Below, piece by piece: positions 24,101-30,181 of a stretch of DNA of 64,000 bases. Below the pieces are notes generated by a model, which saw only the letters and a list, made by a program, of their open reading frames with translations, had not been told where the DNA came from and did not search any database. Source of the stretch: Opitutaceae bacterium (lineage in GTDB: Bacteria > Verrucomicrobiota > Verrucomicrobiia > Opitutales > Opitutaceae). Location: positions 1-64,000 of the forward strand of contig PLTZ01000078.1 in NCBI GenBank assembly GCA_003164715.1, in the 5' to 3' direction. Both the position numbers and the translations under genes were made by a program. The stretch's first letter is position 1; the number at the start of each line of letters is the position of its first letter.

Positions 24101-25104
24101 CGTCGACGACGCGCAAGTACGGCGGCACGGGCCTCGGCCTGGCGATCTGCCAGAGGCTCTGCCAGCTGATGAACGGCGACATCCGCGTCGAGAGCACCCT
24201 CGGCAAGGGGTCGACCTTCACGATGGCCATCATGACGGACGCGGCGCAGCGCCCGGCGGAGGTGTCCGCCCCGCCCTTCGCGGGCCTCGATCTCAAGGGC
24301 GAGTTGGCGCTCTGCATCGAGGACAACCCGATCACGCGCGCCCGCCTGCGTACGCTGTTCGACTCGCTCGGCGCAACCTGCGTGTTCGCCAACGAGCCGG
24401 AGTCCGCGGTGGAGATCGCCTCGAACCTGCCGAACCCGCCGGCGATCGTGATCCTGGACCTGCCCGAGTTCGACAGCCAGCGGGCGCTCGACAAGACGGC
24501 GGAGATCAAGAGCTCGAGGATCGTCCTGTTCCGCCTCGGCCAGACGCCCCCTCCGGCGCCGAAGGACGGATTCCCGTATGCGACGGTCTCGAAGCCGATA
24601 AAGACGGTGTCGTTCCTGCAGGCCCTCTCGCTCCTGGGCAACCGCAGCGGCAGCGGCGGGATCGTGGTGCATGCAAGGCACGAGGACCGCCCGATCGCCG
24701 AGGAGATCCCCCTCACGGTGCTGCTAGCCGAGGATAATGCGGTCAACCAGAGGGTCGCGCTGCGGTTCCTCGAGCGGATGGGCTACAACGCCGACGCGGT
24801 GGGCAACGGCCTGGAGGTGCTGAAGGCGTTCCAGACCCGCAGCTACGACCTGGTGCTCATGGATCTGCAGATGCCCGAGATGGACGGCCTCGAGGCGAGC
24901 CGCCGGATCCGCAGGACCGTGCCCCCGGAGCGCCAGCCGAAGATCATCGCGCTGACGGCCAACGCGATGCAGGGAGACCGCGAGATATGCCTCGACGCGG
25001 GGATGGATGACTACATCTCAAAGCCCGTGAAGATGCACGAGATCGTCGCCGCCATCCGGCGCCAGTTCTCCAAGAGCAAGGTCGCGCCGACCATCACCGA
25101 GTGA
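21151..25104 (+). CDS. hybrid sensor histidine kinase with two receiver domains
   Basis: The 1317-residue protein, in order: about six N-terminal membrane helices (to about residue 240); a probable extracytoplasmic sensor (about 247-470) closed by another helix (about 475-493); PAS/PAC 1 (about 527-650, [19 protein letters not shown]); PAS/PAC 2 (about 665-780); HisKA with phospho-acceptor His806 in [12 protein letters not shown]; HATPase ([28 protein letters not shown]); receiver 1 (about 1052-1165); receiver 2 (about 1187-1305) with phospho-acceptor Asp1238 in [12 protein letters not shown] and conserved Lys in YISKPV. Receiver 1 keeps an Asp (ILDLPEF) and Lys but lacks the usual Thr/Ser. 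The ATG at 21151 is chosen because the hydrophobic region starts soon after. Its stop overlaps the convergent gene by 11 bases. Target unknown. Confidence 0.92.
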
Positions 25105-26290
25105 CGGAGGCCGCGAGCCCGGCGATTTCGCCGGCGCGCGTCTGATCGGCGGCGAGGTTCGTGAGTTCGAGGGGATCCCGGTCCAGGTCGAAGAAGAGCC
25201 ACGGCGAGCCGTCCTCTTTCAGGATGAGCTTGCGGGCGCGGGTGCGCACGCCGGCCCAGATGCGGTCGCACTGGTCGGGCAGGCGCACGACCGAGGGCAT
25301 CGAGATGCGCGCGGCCCCGGGCAGGCCGCTCGGCAGCCCTGTCGCGCCCGCGGCCCACGCCGCCGTCATCCGCGGAAGGTCAAGGAGCGAGACCGGCCGG
25401 TCGTCCCTGCCGGCCCCTCCGGGAATCCGCACCACAAGCGGCACCCGGACGCTCTCCTCGTGGGGCCAGCCCTTGCGGAAGAGCCCGTGGGAGCCGTGCA
25501 TGTCGCCGTGCACCGACGTCACGGCGACAATCGTGTCCCGCGGCAGGGCGCCGACAAGCCCGCCTATGGCGCGGTCGGTCGCCTCCACGTGGGCGTAGTA
25601 CCCCGAAAGGTCCGCCCGGCACCTCGCCTCGTCCGCGCCGCGTAGGGGAACGTTGCCGCGCAGGACGAGGCCCCCGGTGGGCCGGGCGCCCACCCCGGAG
25701 GCGGGCGCGCCGTAGGGCGGATGGGGCGGCTCGAGGCTGACGACCGCGAACCACGGCCGCTCGCACGCCCCGAGCATGGCGCGGGCCCTGCCGCACACGA
25801 CGTCGCTCTGGTAGCCCTCGAAGCGGGCGGGTTCCGGCAGCAGCGTCCCGTGGAGCCAGGGGTCATTGAGAAGAAACCCGCTCTCAAACCCCTCCCAGAA
25901 ATCGAATCCACCCCGGTACTGCGGCGCGACGACCGCGCGGGCGTGCTCATCGCCCGTCAGCCTGGCCCCGGGGTCGCGCACGGAGAGGTGCCATTTCCCG
26001 AAGAAGGCGGTCAGGTAGGAGCGCTCCCTCATCTCGTGGGCGATCGTCCGGGTACCGGGCGGGAGCGGGTCGAAGTATCCGCGCACCCCGTTGCCCGGCG
26101 ATTCCAGGCCGGTGAGCAGGGCGGCCCGCGCGAAGGGCCCGAAGGGATGCGGAGTCACGGCCTGCGTGAAGTCCACGCCCTCCGCGGCCAGGGCGTCCAA
26201 GCAGGGGGTCCGGGCGTTCGGGTCGCCGGAGTACCCGCACGCCTGCGCCCGCCACTGCGTGGTCACGATCCAAAGGATGTTCGGCGGCAT
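25094..26290 (-). CDS. sulfatase-fold protein lacking catalytic residues (probable pseudoenzyme)
   Basis: The 398 residues follow the sulfatase/alkaline phosphatase superfamily from end to end: PPNILWIVT, TPCLDALAAEGVDFTQA, ARAALLTG, GKWHL (98-102), PPHPPYG (about 189-194), HGDMHGSHGLFRKGWPHEESV. The chemistry is gone. The formylglycine motif C-x-P-x-R reads G-P-F-A-R with Gly51 at the cysteine position. The early metal Asp is Thr11 (IVTTQ for IVTDQ), and the DHG aspartate is Val260 (SVHG). Lys99, His101, His190 and Lys273 remain. A binding or scaffold role is likelier than hydrolysis. ATG at 26290 follows a nine-C run; a TTG at 26332 is in frame. It lies downstream of the stator-like pair on the same strand. 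Confidence 0.78.
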   Translation of the reverse strand: MPPNILWIVTTQWRAQACGYSGDPNARTPCLDALAAEGVDFTQAVTPHPFGPFARAALLTGLESPGNGVRGYFDPLPPGTRTIAHEMRERSYLTAFFGKWHLSVRDPGARLTGDEHARAVVAPQYRGGFDFWEGFESGFLLNDPWLHGTLLPEPARFEGYQSDVVCGRARAMLGACERPWFAVVSLEPPHPPYGAPASGVGARPTGGLVLRGNVPLRGADEARCRADLSGYYAHVEATDRAIGGLVGALPRDTIVAVTSVHGDMHGSHGLFRKGWPHEESVRVPLVVRIPGGAGRDDRPVSLLDLPRMTAAWAAGATGLPSGLPGAARISMPSVVRLPDQCDRIWAGVRTRARKLILKEDGSPWLFFDLDRDPLELTNLAADQTRAGEIAGLAASVTR

Positions 26291-26478
26291 GGGGGGGGGT
26301 CGCTCGGGGCCGGAGTTGAGATTGCGCCACAACCCAATTGGATACCGCGGCCTTGTGCAACCCAGCGTCCGGGAAACGCCTCAGTGGAGGCTCGGGCAGC
26401 GGCTGATCGCCCGGAGCGCGGTATTCGAGCGGACCCGGGAGGGGCGCCCCGGCGCCGGCTAGAGCGCCCGCCCCGCCG

Positions 26479-27870
26479 TCACTGCAGCTCCGGAGGCATC
26501 TGCAGGACGCGGGCGGCCAGGGAGTCCAGTAGGCTTCCCGTGCGCTGGACCGCCTTCGACTCCCCGGAGTAGATGGTCGCCAGGGGCGAGAAGTCCCTCA
26601 GCAGGACGCAGTAGTCGCCGTTCACCATGATGCCGAGAAGCTCTCCGTTCTCGCTGAAGACGAGGTCCCCCCTGGATGTCGCAAAGTCCCCGAAGAGGCG
26701 CTTCATCAGTCGGTTATCCACGCGCACATAGCCGTGGTGGGCCTCGTCGAGCTTGAACCCGAGCTCGCCGTAGCCCTTGCCGCCGCCGCTGATCAGGAGC
26801 GCTTGGGGGAACTTGAAGGGATCCGCGGCAAGGGGGTACACCTTGGCGCCCAGCGCGGCCACCTGCTGGGGATCGACGGGGATCACCACCACCCTCGGGT
26901 CCGCTTGGAGGAACTCGACTAGCGCCGCGGCGGACTTGTAATCCGGCGGCCGGTCAAACCTGACCGAGATCCGCTCCCAGTCCGAGCCAATCTCGCGCAG
27001 CGAGAACGGCGTGTCCTCCACCTCGATCAGGGCGTAGACCTGCTTGCCGTCCGTGGTGAACACGGTCTTCGCCTCCTTGTCGCGGGTGGTGGTGCCGAAG
27101 AGCCCCTTGCGGCTCGCGGCGAACGTCGTCTGCACTCGGTTCGCCAGGAAGTCGTTGAAGAGCACGTTCGCGGAGATCGGCCGGTTGTCCCGGATCTCCC
27201 TCGTGAGCTCGCCCGAGTTCTGCGCGAGCGCCCCCACCCCCTGTGCGAGCTGGTTGGTCGCCTGCTCGACCTTCGCGCGCTCCGTCCGCTCGGTCTGCAC
27301 CTGCGCCTCGAGCTCGGTGGCCTTGGCGGCGAGCTGCTCCTTCTCGTGCTCCCCGACCGCAACGGCCACGCTCAGGCTCTCGATCTGCTTCCTCGCCTCC
27401 GCCTGCTGCCGCTCCAGCGAGGCGAGCGCCTCCTTCTGGCGCTGGGCCTCGGTCTTCTTGTCCTCGAGCTCCCGCTGGAGCTGGGCGAGCTCGCTGCGCG
27501 TGAGCGAATTCTCCTGCGTCTCGGCCTGGTACTTGAGGTTGAGCTCGGTCTGCGACTTCTGCGTGTCGACCAGCTGGGCGGTGAGCTTCTGGCTCTCCGA
27601 CTGGAGCTGGCCGAGGCTGCGTTCGCGAGAGGCGAGTGTCGAATCGGAGGAGGCCAGCTTCTGCTCGAGCGCCTGGCGCGACAGCTGCTCCTCGACGAGC
27701 GACTGCCTCATCGCCTCGACCAGGTCCTGCTCCTTCGACACCGTGTTGGAGGAGATCTCGTTGACCGGTGGCTGCACCGGCCGCGAAGGAACCGCCCGCT
27801 CCCACCGCGTAAGCGCGATGAGGTTGAGGAAGAGGAAGTCGACGATGAACAGGAGGAGGGTCTTGTTCAT
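26479..27870 (-). CDS. MotB/ExbD-like anchored coiled-coil protein with degenerate trypsin-like C-terminal domain
   Basis: The 463-residue protein has a single membrane helix at the very N-terminus (residues 4-20) carrying an acidic residue, Asp11, in LLLFIVDFLFLNLIAL. This placement recalls the ion-carrying Asp of MotB, ExbD and ZorB. Residues about 45-220 form a long coiled coil rich in Glu, Gln, Lys. Residues about 235-440 are globular; FATSRGDLVFSENGELLGIMVN resembles the G-x-S-G-x-P-V-x-n-x-x-G-x-l-v-G-I strand pair of trypsin-fold proteins, without a recognisable full triad. The start overlaps the stop of the partner membrane gene (ATGA). Role as half of an ion-driven complex is inference from architecture and pairing. 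Confidence 0.72.
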   Translation of the reverse strand: MNKTLLLFIVDFLFLNLIALTRWERAVPSRPVQPPVNEISSNTVSKEQDLVEAMRQSLVEEQLSRQALEQKLASSDSTLASRERSLGQLQSESQKLTAQLVDTQKSQTELNLKYQAETQENSLTRSELAQLQRELEDKKTEAQRQKEALASLERQQAEARKQIESLSVAVAVGEHEKEQLAAKATELEAQVQTERTERAKVEQATNQLAQGVGALAQNSGELTREIRDNRPISANVLFNDFLANRVQTTFAASRKGLFGTTTRDKEAKTVFTTDGKQVYALIEVEDTPFSLREIGSDWERISVRFDRPPDYKSAAALVEFLQADPRVVVIPVDPQQVAALGAKVYPLAADPFKFPQALLISGGGKGYGELGFKLDEAHHGYVRVDNRLMKRLFGDFATSRGDLVFSENGELLGIMVNGDYCVLLRDFSPLATIYSGESKAVQRTGSLLDSLAARVLQMPPELQ

Positions 27871-29534
27871 AGGCCGGCGGTCGCGGCGGCGGGTCTCTGT
27901 CCCTCGAGGATCAGCCGGCGCCTGAAGCCGCGGACGTGCCGGATCTTCACCAGGGCGACGCAGATGATGCCGAAAAGGTTGGACGAGTACGCGGCCAGCA
28001 GGTTCGGCTCGATGACGCCGACCACCTGCAGGACGAGGGCCGCGGCGGTGCCCATCATCCCGACGTACAGGCCGCTGTCGAAGAGGTTCTCTTCGTTCTC
28101 CATGAGCCGGAGCTTCAGGAGGGGCGGGGCGTCCTGGATTTCGATCTCCCTGATCTTGCGGAGGCAGGCCATGTACATCGCGACCTGCAGGCCGGCGAAT
28201 ATGCCGATAGAGACGAGTGTGGAGGTTTCCATAGTGACCGGTGTTGAGGGTTGGGCGGTTTCAGTTCGGGTAGCCGCGGCCGCGAGCATCGGGATCACCA
28301 GGTGCACGCGGTATTCCGAGGCAGGGGCGGCCTTCAGCAGGAAGGGTTCGGTGGCGACGATCAGGAGCGCCGCCATCACGACGGCGAGGACCCCCGAGCG
28401 CACATGCTGGTGCGGGCCCGCCGAGGGTCCGCCCGCGGGCGACACGACCCAGAGGTCGAGGCCGCGCAGGAGCAGGTAGAGCCCGAGGATGTAGCCCGCA
28501 TACTTGAGGGAGAGCATGAACCGCGGGTGCTCGAGCACGAGCGCCGCCGCGGCGCCCATGGCGGGCCCGGGCGACCGGTTGACCGGCACCTCGCGCTGCA
28601 GGAGCAGGTTGACCGCGCCCTGTCCGTCGGTGAGCGCGAGGCGGAGGTCCTCGGAGCCGGCCCTGCCGTAGCGGATGAGGTACGAGGCGACCCTGTCCGC
28701 GGAGTTCGAGAGCAGCGCGGCGGAGTAGATGAAAGGCAGCTGGTCGGGCGCCACACGGCTTAGGTGCGCGTATTCCCCGACCGTGCGCACGCTCTGCGTC
28801 CTCCGGACGAGCTCGCAGAGCTGCGTCCAGTCTAGGCGGCGTCCGAGTGAAAGCAGGTCGATATAGAAGCCCTCGAGGTCGCCCAGCTCGCCGCGCTGGA
28901 CCGCAACCTCGGCGAGGGCGCGCACCTCGCGCTGGAGGGTCGGCGACAGGTGCTCGCCCTGGTAGAGGAGGCCCGTGAGGAGGATGAGGGCGTCCAGCGG
29001 CTGGCCGCCCGGGCGCGCCGCCGGGACAAACCTGCCGGTCTTCGCCACGTCGCGGGTCCTGAGGATCGCCTGGACGCCCACGGAGCCGGAGTTCGCCAGG
29101 TAGGAGCGGACGGTCTCGCGCGCGTGCTCCGGGATGAGGAAGGTCACGACCGGGGTGCTCGAGGTGCGCGCCGTCTTCTGGCGCAGGTTGAAGAGGGGAT
29201 CGAGGGCCGGGTCCCACCCGCCCCAGGCCGCGAGGGCGGGCTGCCGGGAGGTGAACTGGTCCAGGGCGCGCTCGAGGCCGGCCGCGCGCGGGTCGTCCAC
29301 GGCCTTGGCCGTCTCAAGGAGGAACCGGGCGGGCCCGATCTTCTCCGAGTCCACGAGGTCCCGCCCGAACGCGGCGACCGAGGGGGTTCCGTCGCCGGCG
29401 GAACGCAGCAGCCCCTTGCTGACGGATTTCAGGCTCACCGGCAGGAGCCACGCGAGCACCGCTACGACCGCGCCCACGAAGACGAGCGCGGGCGCGGATG
29501 CAGGGGTGTGCCGGGGGTCCTGGCTTGGGATCAT
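27867..29534 (-). CDS. multi-pass membrane protein with MotA/TolQ/ExbB-like C-terminal half
   Basis: The 555-residue protein has predicted membrane helices near 14-34, 341-358, 380-398, 438-458, 487-507 and 511-531, with a 300-residue helical soluble region between the first two. The last two helices read LYVGMMGTAAALVLQVVGV and AAYSSNLFGIICVALVK and end in a basic R-x-x-R-G-F-R-R-R segment. This parallels the G-x-x-G-T-v-x-g and A-l-x-T-t-x-x-G-l-x-v-A-i helices of the MotA/TolQ/ExbB channel family. The next gene encodes a one-helix protein with an intramembrane Asp, the expected partner. Conservative label: membrane protein of unknown function, possibly an ion channel subunit. Confidence 0.68.
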   Translation of the reverse strand: MIPSQDPRHTPASAPALVFVGAVVAVLAWLLPVSLKSVSKGLLRSAGDGTPSVAAFGRDLVDSEKIGPARFLLETAKAVDDPRAAGLERALDQFTSRQPALAAWGGWDPALDPLFNLRQKTARTSSTPVVTFLIPEHARETVRSYLANSGSVGVQAILRTRDVAKTGRFVPAARPGGQPLDALILLTGLLYQGEHLSPTLQREVRALAEVAVQRGELGDLEGFYIDLLSLGRRLDWTQLCELVRRTQSVRTVGEYAHLSRVAPDQLPFIYSAALLSNSADRVASYLIRYGRAGSEDLRLALTDGQGAVNLLLQREVPVNRSPGPAMGAAAALVLEHPRFMLSLKYAGYILGLYLLLRGLDLWVVSPAGGPSAGPHQHVRSGVLAVVMAALLIVATEPFLLKAAPASEYRVHLVIPMLAAAATRTETAQPSTPVTMETSTLVSIGIFAGLQVAMYMACLRKIREIEIQDAPPLLKLRLMENEENLFDSGLYVGMMGTAAALVLQVVGVIEPNLLAAYSSNLFGIICVALVKIRHVRGFRRRLILEGQRPAAATAGL

Positions 29535-29602: not shown

Positions 29603-30181
29603 ATGTCCCTGGAAATTGTTCACTACAACGATCCAGTTTTGCGTAAGAAAGGCGAGAAAATCACCGCATTCGATGATGCGCTCGCCTTTCTTGCGGACCG
29701 GATGACCGAGGCCATGCACGAGGCGCACGGCATCGGCCTTGCCGCCCAGCAGGTCGGGCGCGCCCTCCAGCTCTTCGTGGTCGACCTGCGCGAGACGGAG
29801 GTGGAATTCGACTGGAAGATCGACGGGGCGAAGACGCCGCTCGAGCTCTTCATGCCGATGGTGGTCGCCAACCCCAAGGTCACCGTCGCTCGGAAGACCC
29901 CGACCGTATCCCTGGAAGAGGGCTGCCTGTCGTTCCCCGAGATCCGGGGCGATGTGGTGCGGGCCGAAGCGATTTCCGCGAAGTTCCAGGATGCGGCCGG
30001 GCTCCAGCACACCCTCGAGTGCACGGGGCTGTTCGCCCGGTGCATGCTCCACGAGGCCGACCACGTGAACGGCATCCTCTTCATCGACCGGATGGACAAG
30101 GTGGTGCGCGCCACGGTTGACGAGGCCGTCAAGGCGCTGGCGAAGAGCACCAAGGCCGCGCGCGCGGCCGCGACGAAATGA
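29603..30181 (+). CDS. def: peptide deformylase
   Basis: Def removes the formyl group from the N-terminal methionine of nascent proteins using a bound metal. The 192-residue protein has all three motifs: GIGLAAQQ (43-50), EEGCLSFP with metal ligand Cys108, and HEADH with His150, catalytic Glu151 and His154. The third motif reads CMLHEADHVNG where most enzymes have QHExDHLxG; the essential residues are kept. A short insertion around residues 65-84 lengthens the protein slightly. The stop overlaps the next start (ATGA at 30178). Confidence 0.94.
   Translation: MSLEIVHYNDPVLRKKGEKITAFDDALAFLADRMTEAMHEAHGIGLAAQQVGRALQLFVVDLRETEVEFDWKIDGAKTPLELFMPMVVANPKVTVARKTPTVSLEEGCLSFPEIRGDVVRAEAISAKFQDAAGLQHTLECTGLFARCMLHEADHVNGILFIDRMDKVVRATVDEAVKALAKSTKAARAAATK

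Follow-up and report, generated by a model that had tools for sequence, protein, structure and literature searches.

The locus considered here raises the question of whether two overlapping genes of an Opitutaceae bacterium, termed A and B, encode an ion-driven membrane motor. They occupy positions 26,479 to 29,534 of the window, which is the whole 64,000-nucleotide stretch that was analysed (contig PLTZ01000078.1, positions 1 to 64,000, assembly GCA_003164715.1). On the evidence set out below A-B is probably an inner-membrane motor of the 5:2 type, driven by the ion-motive force and working like MotAB/ExbBD. An ion-driven stator pair had been proposed in a sequence-only reading of this DNA, and the proposal has been strengthened rather than settled, by the invariance of an aspartate (Asp11) in B, a motif that A shares solely with MotA/ExbB proteins, the topology of the short form of A, the co-occurrence of the two genes and the decay of A where B is lost. 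The known families of 5:2 ion-driven motor number, to our knowledge, no more than a handful, and A-B, which family models miss, would add to them a minimal ring of MotA type together with an unusual shaft. It has been argued that further trans-envelope systems of the 5:2 type remain to be found (PMC12204202).

The evidence begins with the membrane helix of B. The AlphaFold2 (AF2) model places a helix at residues 3-20 that contains Asp11, in agreement with the single N-terminal helix that had been claimed. Conservation of this residue among homologues had been named beforehand as one of two points on which the proposal could be refuted, the other being structural similarity to the 5:2 motor fold, and the residue proved to be invariant, with Asp at position 11 in 183/183 N-termini (97 distinct sequences), very divergent lineages included. 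The automatic count was 179, the other four being wrong start-codon picks for which the true starts (MNKTLLLILCDF, MSRSILIIITDF and VNRAILIVICDF) carry the Asp. No other charged residue inside helix 3-20 is invariant. Position 3 is Lys, Arg or His in nearly all sequences and an N-in orientation of B is therefore favoured.

The likeness of A to MotA/ExbB proteins lies in its last two helices, where the MotA/TolQ/ExbB pattern had been noticed and is indeed found, with GMMGT at residues 492-496 and SSNLFGIICVAL at 517-528. Expressed as a two-part signature, GxxGT...Axx[ST][TN]xxG, it occurred in 94 of the 108 A proteins and in 34 of the 50 from MotA/ExbB, with no occurrence among 364 other membrane open reading frames (ORFs), and all 213 matches in 7,323 open segments were A or MotA/ExbB proteins. 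The A sequences LPLYVGLFGTV and AYSSTLIGI resemble APLLGLLGTV and ALLTTISGL, respectively, of ExbB/TolQ-type sequences. When membrane ORFs were ranked with hhalign, MotA/ExbB proteins made up 28 of the top 45 compared to a base rate of 11%.

A number of results weigh against such a kinship. The signature was written after both families had been seen and its performance shows specificity, not unbiased discovery. The hhalign comparison of A with MotA/ExbB put the motifs in register (P 0.0036) at a probability that was low, 3.7%, and a profile of 108 A sequences gave no improvement, with one helix aligned (P 0.016). Searching the host genome with PF01618 recovered six other MotA/ExbB proteins and missed A, and PF01618 was absent from the families listed at E <=10 for 55 short A proteins, the weak matches listed being to tolQ (E 0.066, two members) and exbB2 (E 2, four members). 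A hidden Markov model (HMM) of the A core, applied to the scored candidates of 12 genomes, had no MotA/ExbB protein among the sub-threshold matches read. Foldseek and VIA, with the whole A model as one large query, listed weak mixed matches (best Z 7.9) with no MotA/ExbB chain among them, a result that the size of the query renders uninformative, and a search of the PDB with the A-core sequence produced FtsX alone (E 1.6). There is also the matter of the cytoplasmic loop that joins the ring helices of A. It has 20 residues in the window and averages about 27 in short A proteins, far below the length in MotA/ExbB. Given the failed HMM tests and the weak profile-profile scores, homology of A to MotA/ExbB is therefore regarded as likely, not proven, and formal membership of the family is unproven on the grounds of both the HMM results and the cytoplasmic domain.

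The claim of two overlapping genes was correct, both ORFs being present with an overlap of 4 bp, and A-B is a conserved pair in every lineage examined, throughout Verrucomicrobiota, and single-copy where surveyed. A survey of 288 genomes of the phylum revealed A relatives in 96 and direct B matches in 38, the lower figure arising because B diverges fast. A B-like gene with an N-terminal, Asp-bearing membrane helix lies directly after A in 59/59 distant loci read, and in the 14 distant examples compared the C-terminal domain of B aligns with that of the window. Scanning a genome collection yielded 376 relatives in all, those named including Cerasicoccus, Coraliomargarita, Candidatus Didemnitutus and Puniceicoccaceae, in keeping with an Opitutales-type genome for the window, and neighbourhoods were counted in the best 80 of these loci, mostly from Opitutales, with B adjoining A in 65. 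The 15 non-adjacent loci comprised ten in which A was followed by an lpxA-like gene, three from Cerasicoccus and two single cases, and B was encoded elsewhere in 14 of the 15 genomes, the remaining record being fragmentary and ending just after A. That A without an adjacent B represents a break of the pairing was considered and rejected, as B is present elsewhere in the genomes with the lpxA-like neighbour.

The ten lineages with this neighbour all belong to the Opitutales (L161, L167, L169, L172, L173, L176, L181, L184, L187, L190) and have a spacing between A and the lpxA-like gene of -16 to +10 bp, with the end of A at around 6350 in most. A pdxA-like gene often comes after the lpxA-like gene and B is elsewhere in the genome; the names lpxA-like and pdxA-like were read from sequence and several of the lineages are apparently host-associated. 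In two of them A and its lpxA-like neighbour are a few kb away from genes for ordinary MotA/ExbB-family proteins (L167:10506(-) and L173:10686(-)).

A search of 200 genomes of the window's own family recovered 157 with A and 155 with B. One of the two genomes that apparently had A only has the start of B at a contig edge. In the other (L288:2063-4108, G370:C8) A contains in-frame stops and B is absent from a site that is flanked, as in the window, by deformylase-like and sulfatase genes, so that in this one genome loss of B accompanies decay of A. The tally is 156 genomes with both genes, 43 with neither and one with B lost and A ridden with stops; co-occurrence is therefore complete in the 200-genome sample (Fisher P 4e-43, phylogeny ignored).

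The AF2 model of the window's A protein has a mean predicted local distance difference test score of 87.5 and a predicted template modelling score of 0.81. It contains six membrane helices, and not the four first counted, whilst the soluble domain of some 300 residues that had been placed between helices 1 and 2 is there (residues ~31-336) and is all helical. This domain is an elaboration of the Opitutales and of family f20; the other lineages read do without it. The non-Opitutales families read, f20 excepted, have a short A of about 180 amino acids with four helices, which is N-in/C-in by counts of Lys and Arg, a MotA-like topology according to hydropathy and charge. Long A, of 550-600 amino acids, carries in addition the helical domain that comes after helix 1 and a helical hairpin, and may either be ancestral or have arisen twice. 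In f20 (L069, L078, L083), which lies outside the Opitutales, A has 562-601 amino acids and B starts MRP[AS]LLVIIMDFLVSS. Conserved residues cluster in the last three helices among 108 A sequences: Gln450, Leu489, Tyr490, Gly492, Gly495, Tyr516 and Gly522 are invariant (108/108), Thr496 is kept in 100, Ser518 in 104 and Thr/Asn519 in all 108, and Asp486 is nearly invariant.

The AF2 model of B runs from helix 3-20 through a disordered stretch (24-50), a single helix (51-198) and a short helical pair to an all-beta region (246-434). The coiled coil followed by a globular domain that had been described is thus present, with the coiled coil at about 148 residues (51-198) and not 170; its length in Table 1 is taken at 0.15 nm per residue. 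The globular domain is a chymotrypsin fold that matches DegP/HtrA in Foldseek (E 2e-6) and many different trypsin-fold proteases in VIA (Z ~11 over 150-175 residues). By hand alignment, the position of the putative catalytic His is occupied by Glu in the window and by His in 33 of 50 sequences, and the residue at the place of the catalytic Ser is mostly Arg in Opitutales, or something other. Distant B proteins lack both catalytic His and Ser, yet keep a GD[FL]...G...G stretch around the nucleophile position. An active protease was rejected because the catalytic positions are not kept, and with the catalytic residues lost the head is therefore read, from its sequence, as an inactive binding domain. 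A search of the PDB with the B sequence gave coiled coils only, Pfam had no family for the window's B and only coiled-coil-type families among the matches listed for its relatives, and no ExbD/TolR, MotB or OmpA-like domain match was found in B.

Table 1. Positions in the window of genes A and B, their predicted parts and the two adjoining genes
Feature	Coordinates	Strand	Basis
Gene A, channel/ring-like subunit, 555 amino acids	27867-29534	-	ORF; homologues in 96/288 phylum genomes; AF2
A transmembrane helix (TM) 1, residues 13-30	29445-29498	-	AF2 helix
A helical soluble domain, residues 31-336, probably periplasmic	28527-29444	-	AF2; architecture comparison
A TM2, residues 337-364, long form only	28443-28526	-	AF2
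A TM3, residues 374-395, long form only	28350-28415	-	AF2
A TM4, residues 437-466, Gln450 invariant 108/108	28137-28226	-	AF2; conservation
A TM5, residues 487-504	28023-28076	-	AF2
A motif part 1, GMMGT, residues 492-496, family form GLxGT	28047-28061	-	Motif specificity test; conservation
A TM6, residues 512-546, long C-terminal helix	27897-28001	-	AF2
A motif part 2, AYSSNLFGI, residues 515-523, family form AYxSTLxGI	27966-27992	-	Motif specificity test; conservation
Gene B, shaft-like subunit, 463 amino acids	26479-27870	-	ORF; adjoins A in 59/59 distant and 65/80 mostly Opitutales loci
B single membrane helix, residues 3-20	27811-27864	-	AF2; hydropathy
B Asp11 codon, proposed ion-binding acid	27838-27840	-	Invariant 183/183
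B coiled coil, residues 51-198, ~22 nm if straight	27277-27720	-	AF2
B chymotrypsin-fold domain, residues 246-434, catalytic residues not conserved	26569-27135	-	Foldseek; VIA; conservation
Sulfatase gene	25094-26332		
Peptide-deformylase-like gene	29603-30181		Named by eye

In a further family, f16, the pair has a neighbour of some interest. In 8 of 9 sampled f16 loci the product of the gene directly 3' of B has a Ser/Thr kinase domain at its N-terminus, then a membrane helix, and an FGE-sulfatase domain at its C-terminus, and the order A-B-kinase is conserved in L067, L068, L070, L071, L072, L079, L081 and L082. These eight genomes have only 1-5 FGE-domain matches each, the neighbour being the sole match in three, and the linkage is therefore far from chance. 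The kinase is not beside the pair in the window nor in the non-f16 lineages examined. In PorK/GldK, which partner the PorLM/GldLM motor, the docking hub is an inactive FGE fold (PMC12421860) and the parallel with the f16 domain is suggestive only.

The 5:2 motors provide a model, by analogy, for how A-B might work (PMC9389320). Several A subunits, five if the analogy holds, would make a ring, with the last two helices (GxxGT / AxxSTxxG) lining its pore, and this ring would surround the N-terminal helices of a B dimer. Asp11 of B would be the ion-binding residue, facing a belt of Thr and Ser in TM5 and TM6 of A, and its protonation and deprotonation, or the binding of Na+, as ions flow would step the ring in rotation relative to B. 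Torque or pull might then pass along the periplasmic coiled coil, which is predicted to be long enough to span much of the periplasm, to the inactive protease-fold head, which would act on a load there by binding a cell-wall or outer-membrane partner; in f16 that partner could plausibly be the FGE-fold domain of the adjacent kinase.

An important consideration is whether the same observations could be accounted for by something that does not move. A-B might be a static membrane receptor or scaffold, in which the protease-fold head senses the periplasm and, in f16, reports to the linked kinase, and Asp11 contributes not to ion transport but to the packing or assembly of helices against polar residues in A. 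A head without catalytic residues, a kinase next door in f16 and the presence in A of invariant polar residues (Gln450, Tyr490, Tyr516) that could pair with Asp11 all fit this explanation, as does the lack of any HMM-level relationship to motors, which counts against the motor itself. It is nevertheless thought unlikely, since it leaves unexplained both a motif common to A and MotA/ExbB alone and a sole invariant acid at the place of the MotB/ExbD acid, and the kinase is confined to f16 among the loci examined. Less likely by some way is a channel or secondary transporter for a solute or lipid, driven by the proton-motive force (PMF) but non-rotary, with B as a regulatory plug. Such a device would make equal use of the conserved acid and of the small polar residues lining the pore, and long A does have the additional TM2 and TM3 and a large soluble domain, but the minimal A consists of four short helices with no plausible substrate pathway and a long coiled-coil shaft is what a force transducer would be expected to have, and a plug would not. 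Most improbable of all is a Gld/PorLM-like motor in which B drives an FGE-fold envelope docking protein as PorM drives the PorK ring, for although the FGE-domain protein follows A-B so regularly in f16 and PorK/GldK is an inactive FGE docking hub beside the PorLM motor (PMC12421860), the f16 protein joins its FGE domain to a Ser/Thr kinase, there is no FGE neighbour in the window's family and B ends in a trypsin fold, not in PorM-like domains.

Returning to the 5:2-type motor, the pair had been described as unlike the Mot, Exb/Tol and Zorya systems, which holds for the sequence families and the periplasmic domain of B but not for the working principle, which would be the known one. With MotAB, ExbBD and TolQR it has in common adjacent genes, a polytopic partner whose last two helices carry GxxGT...AxxTTxxG, a B-type partner with a single N-terminal helix and an invariant Asp, as in MotB/ExbD/TolR, and, in short A, the N-in/C-in four-helix topology of MotA. 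It differs from these systems (PF01618 with PF02472 or MotB) in that A is not detected by PF01618, a short loop replaces the torque or condensed cytoplasmic domains and B ends in a trypsin-fold domain. Whilst the fold of B 246-434 is that of HtrA/Deg, the catalytic His and Ser positions are not conserved, and a dead protease-like head occurs in none of the known motors compared.

Transducers combining a transpore helix with a vWA domain (TPH-vWA) have been predicted, Verrucomicrobia included, and have a single transpore helix with a conserved Asp and a periplasmic globular head, for which direct rotation inside the ring was proposed (PMC12204202). B is likewise an Asp-bearing helix fused to a head; however, the TPH-vWA systems have recognisable TolQ homologues and a vWA head, whereas A is unrecognisable as TolQ and B carries its trypsin-fold head on a coiled coil. 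The resemblance to GldLM/PorLM is in the association with an FGE-fold protein, for A-B in f16 only and fused to the kinase. GldL has two helices and carries the key acid itself, whereas the conserved acid of A-B sits in the shaft. No Gld/Por model was among the Pfam and NCBIfam matches listed for A and B, in searches that involved no profile-to-profile comparison, and by sequence the GldLM/PorLM motor itself is not obviously homologous to MotAB (PMC9389320). Coiled-coil noise apart, no family for A or B came from Pfam, NCBIfam, PADLOC or PHROGs. ZorAB of Zorya defence applies MotA/MotB-like logic in a non-flagellar system, as A-B would, but A-B, which occurs in about three quarters of the genomes of the family, lacks the patchy distribution of a defence system. 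The ZorA and ZorB models of PADLOC gave no match to A and one match of ZorA3 to a B relative, in its coiled coil, which is noise, and a relationship to Zorya was rejected on this result.

It may be the case, although we hold this broader suggestion to be doubtful, that A-B constitutes a phylum-wide class of PMF motor, independently evolved or extremely reduced, with a ring subunit of ~180 amino acids almost without a cytoplasmic domain and a coiled-coil shaft with a repurposed protease fold, wired in some families to a transmembrane kinase via an FGE-fold docking domain. Motor output would then be linked to intracellular signalling in those families. The pair is found in some three quarters of the genomes of its family and across a phylum with poorly known envelope biology. 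Two questions would be made testable by it, namely the smallest size at which a ring subunit can still harvest an ion gradient, and whether motor shafts take on inactive enzyme folds as docking heads, trypsin in this case and FGE in PorK/GldK.

As regards the immediate surroundings in the window, the sulfatase and deformylase-like neighbours (Table 1) give no functional hint for A-B, and the pair looks to be chromosomal and widespread in the family.

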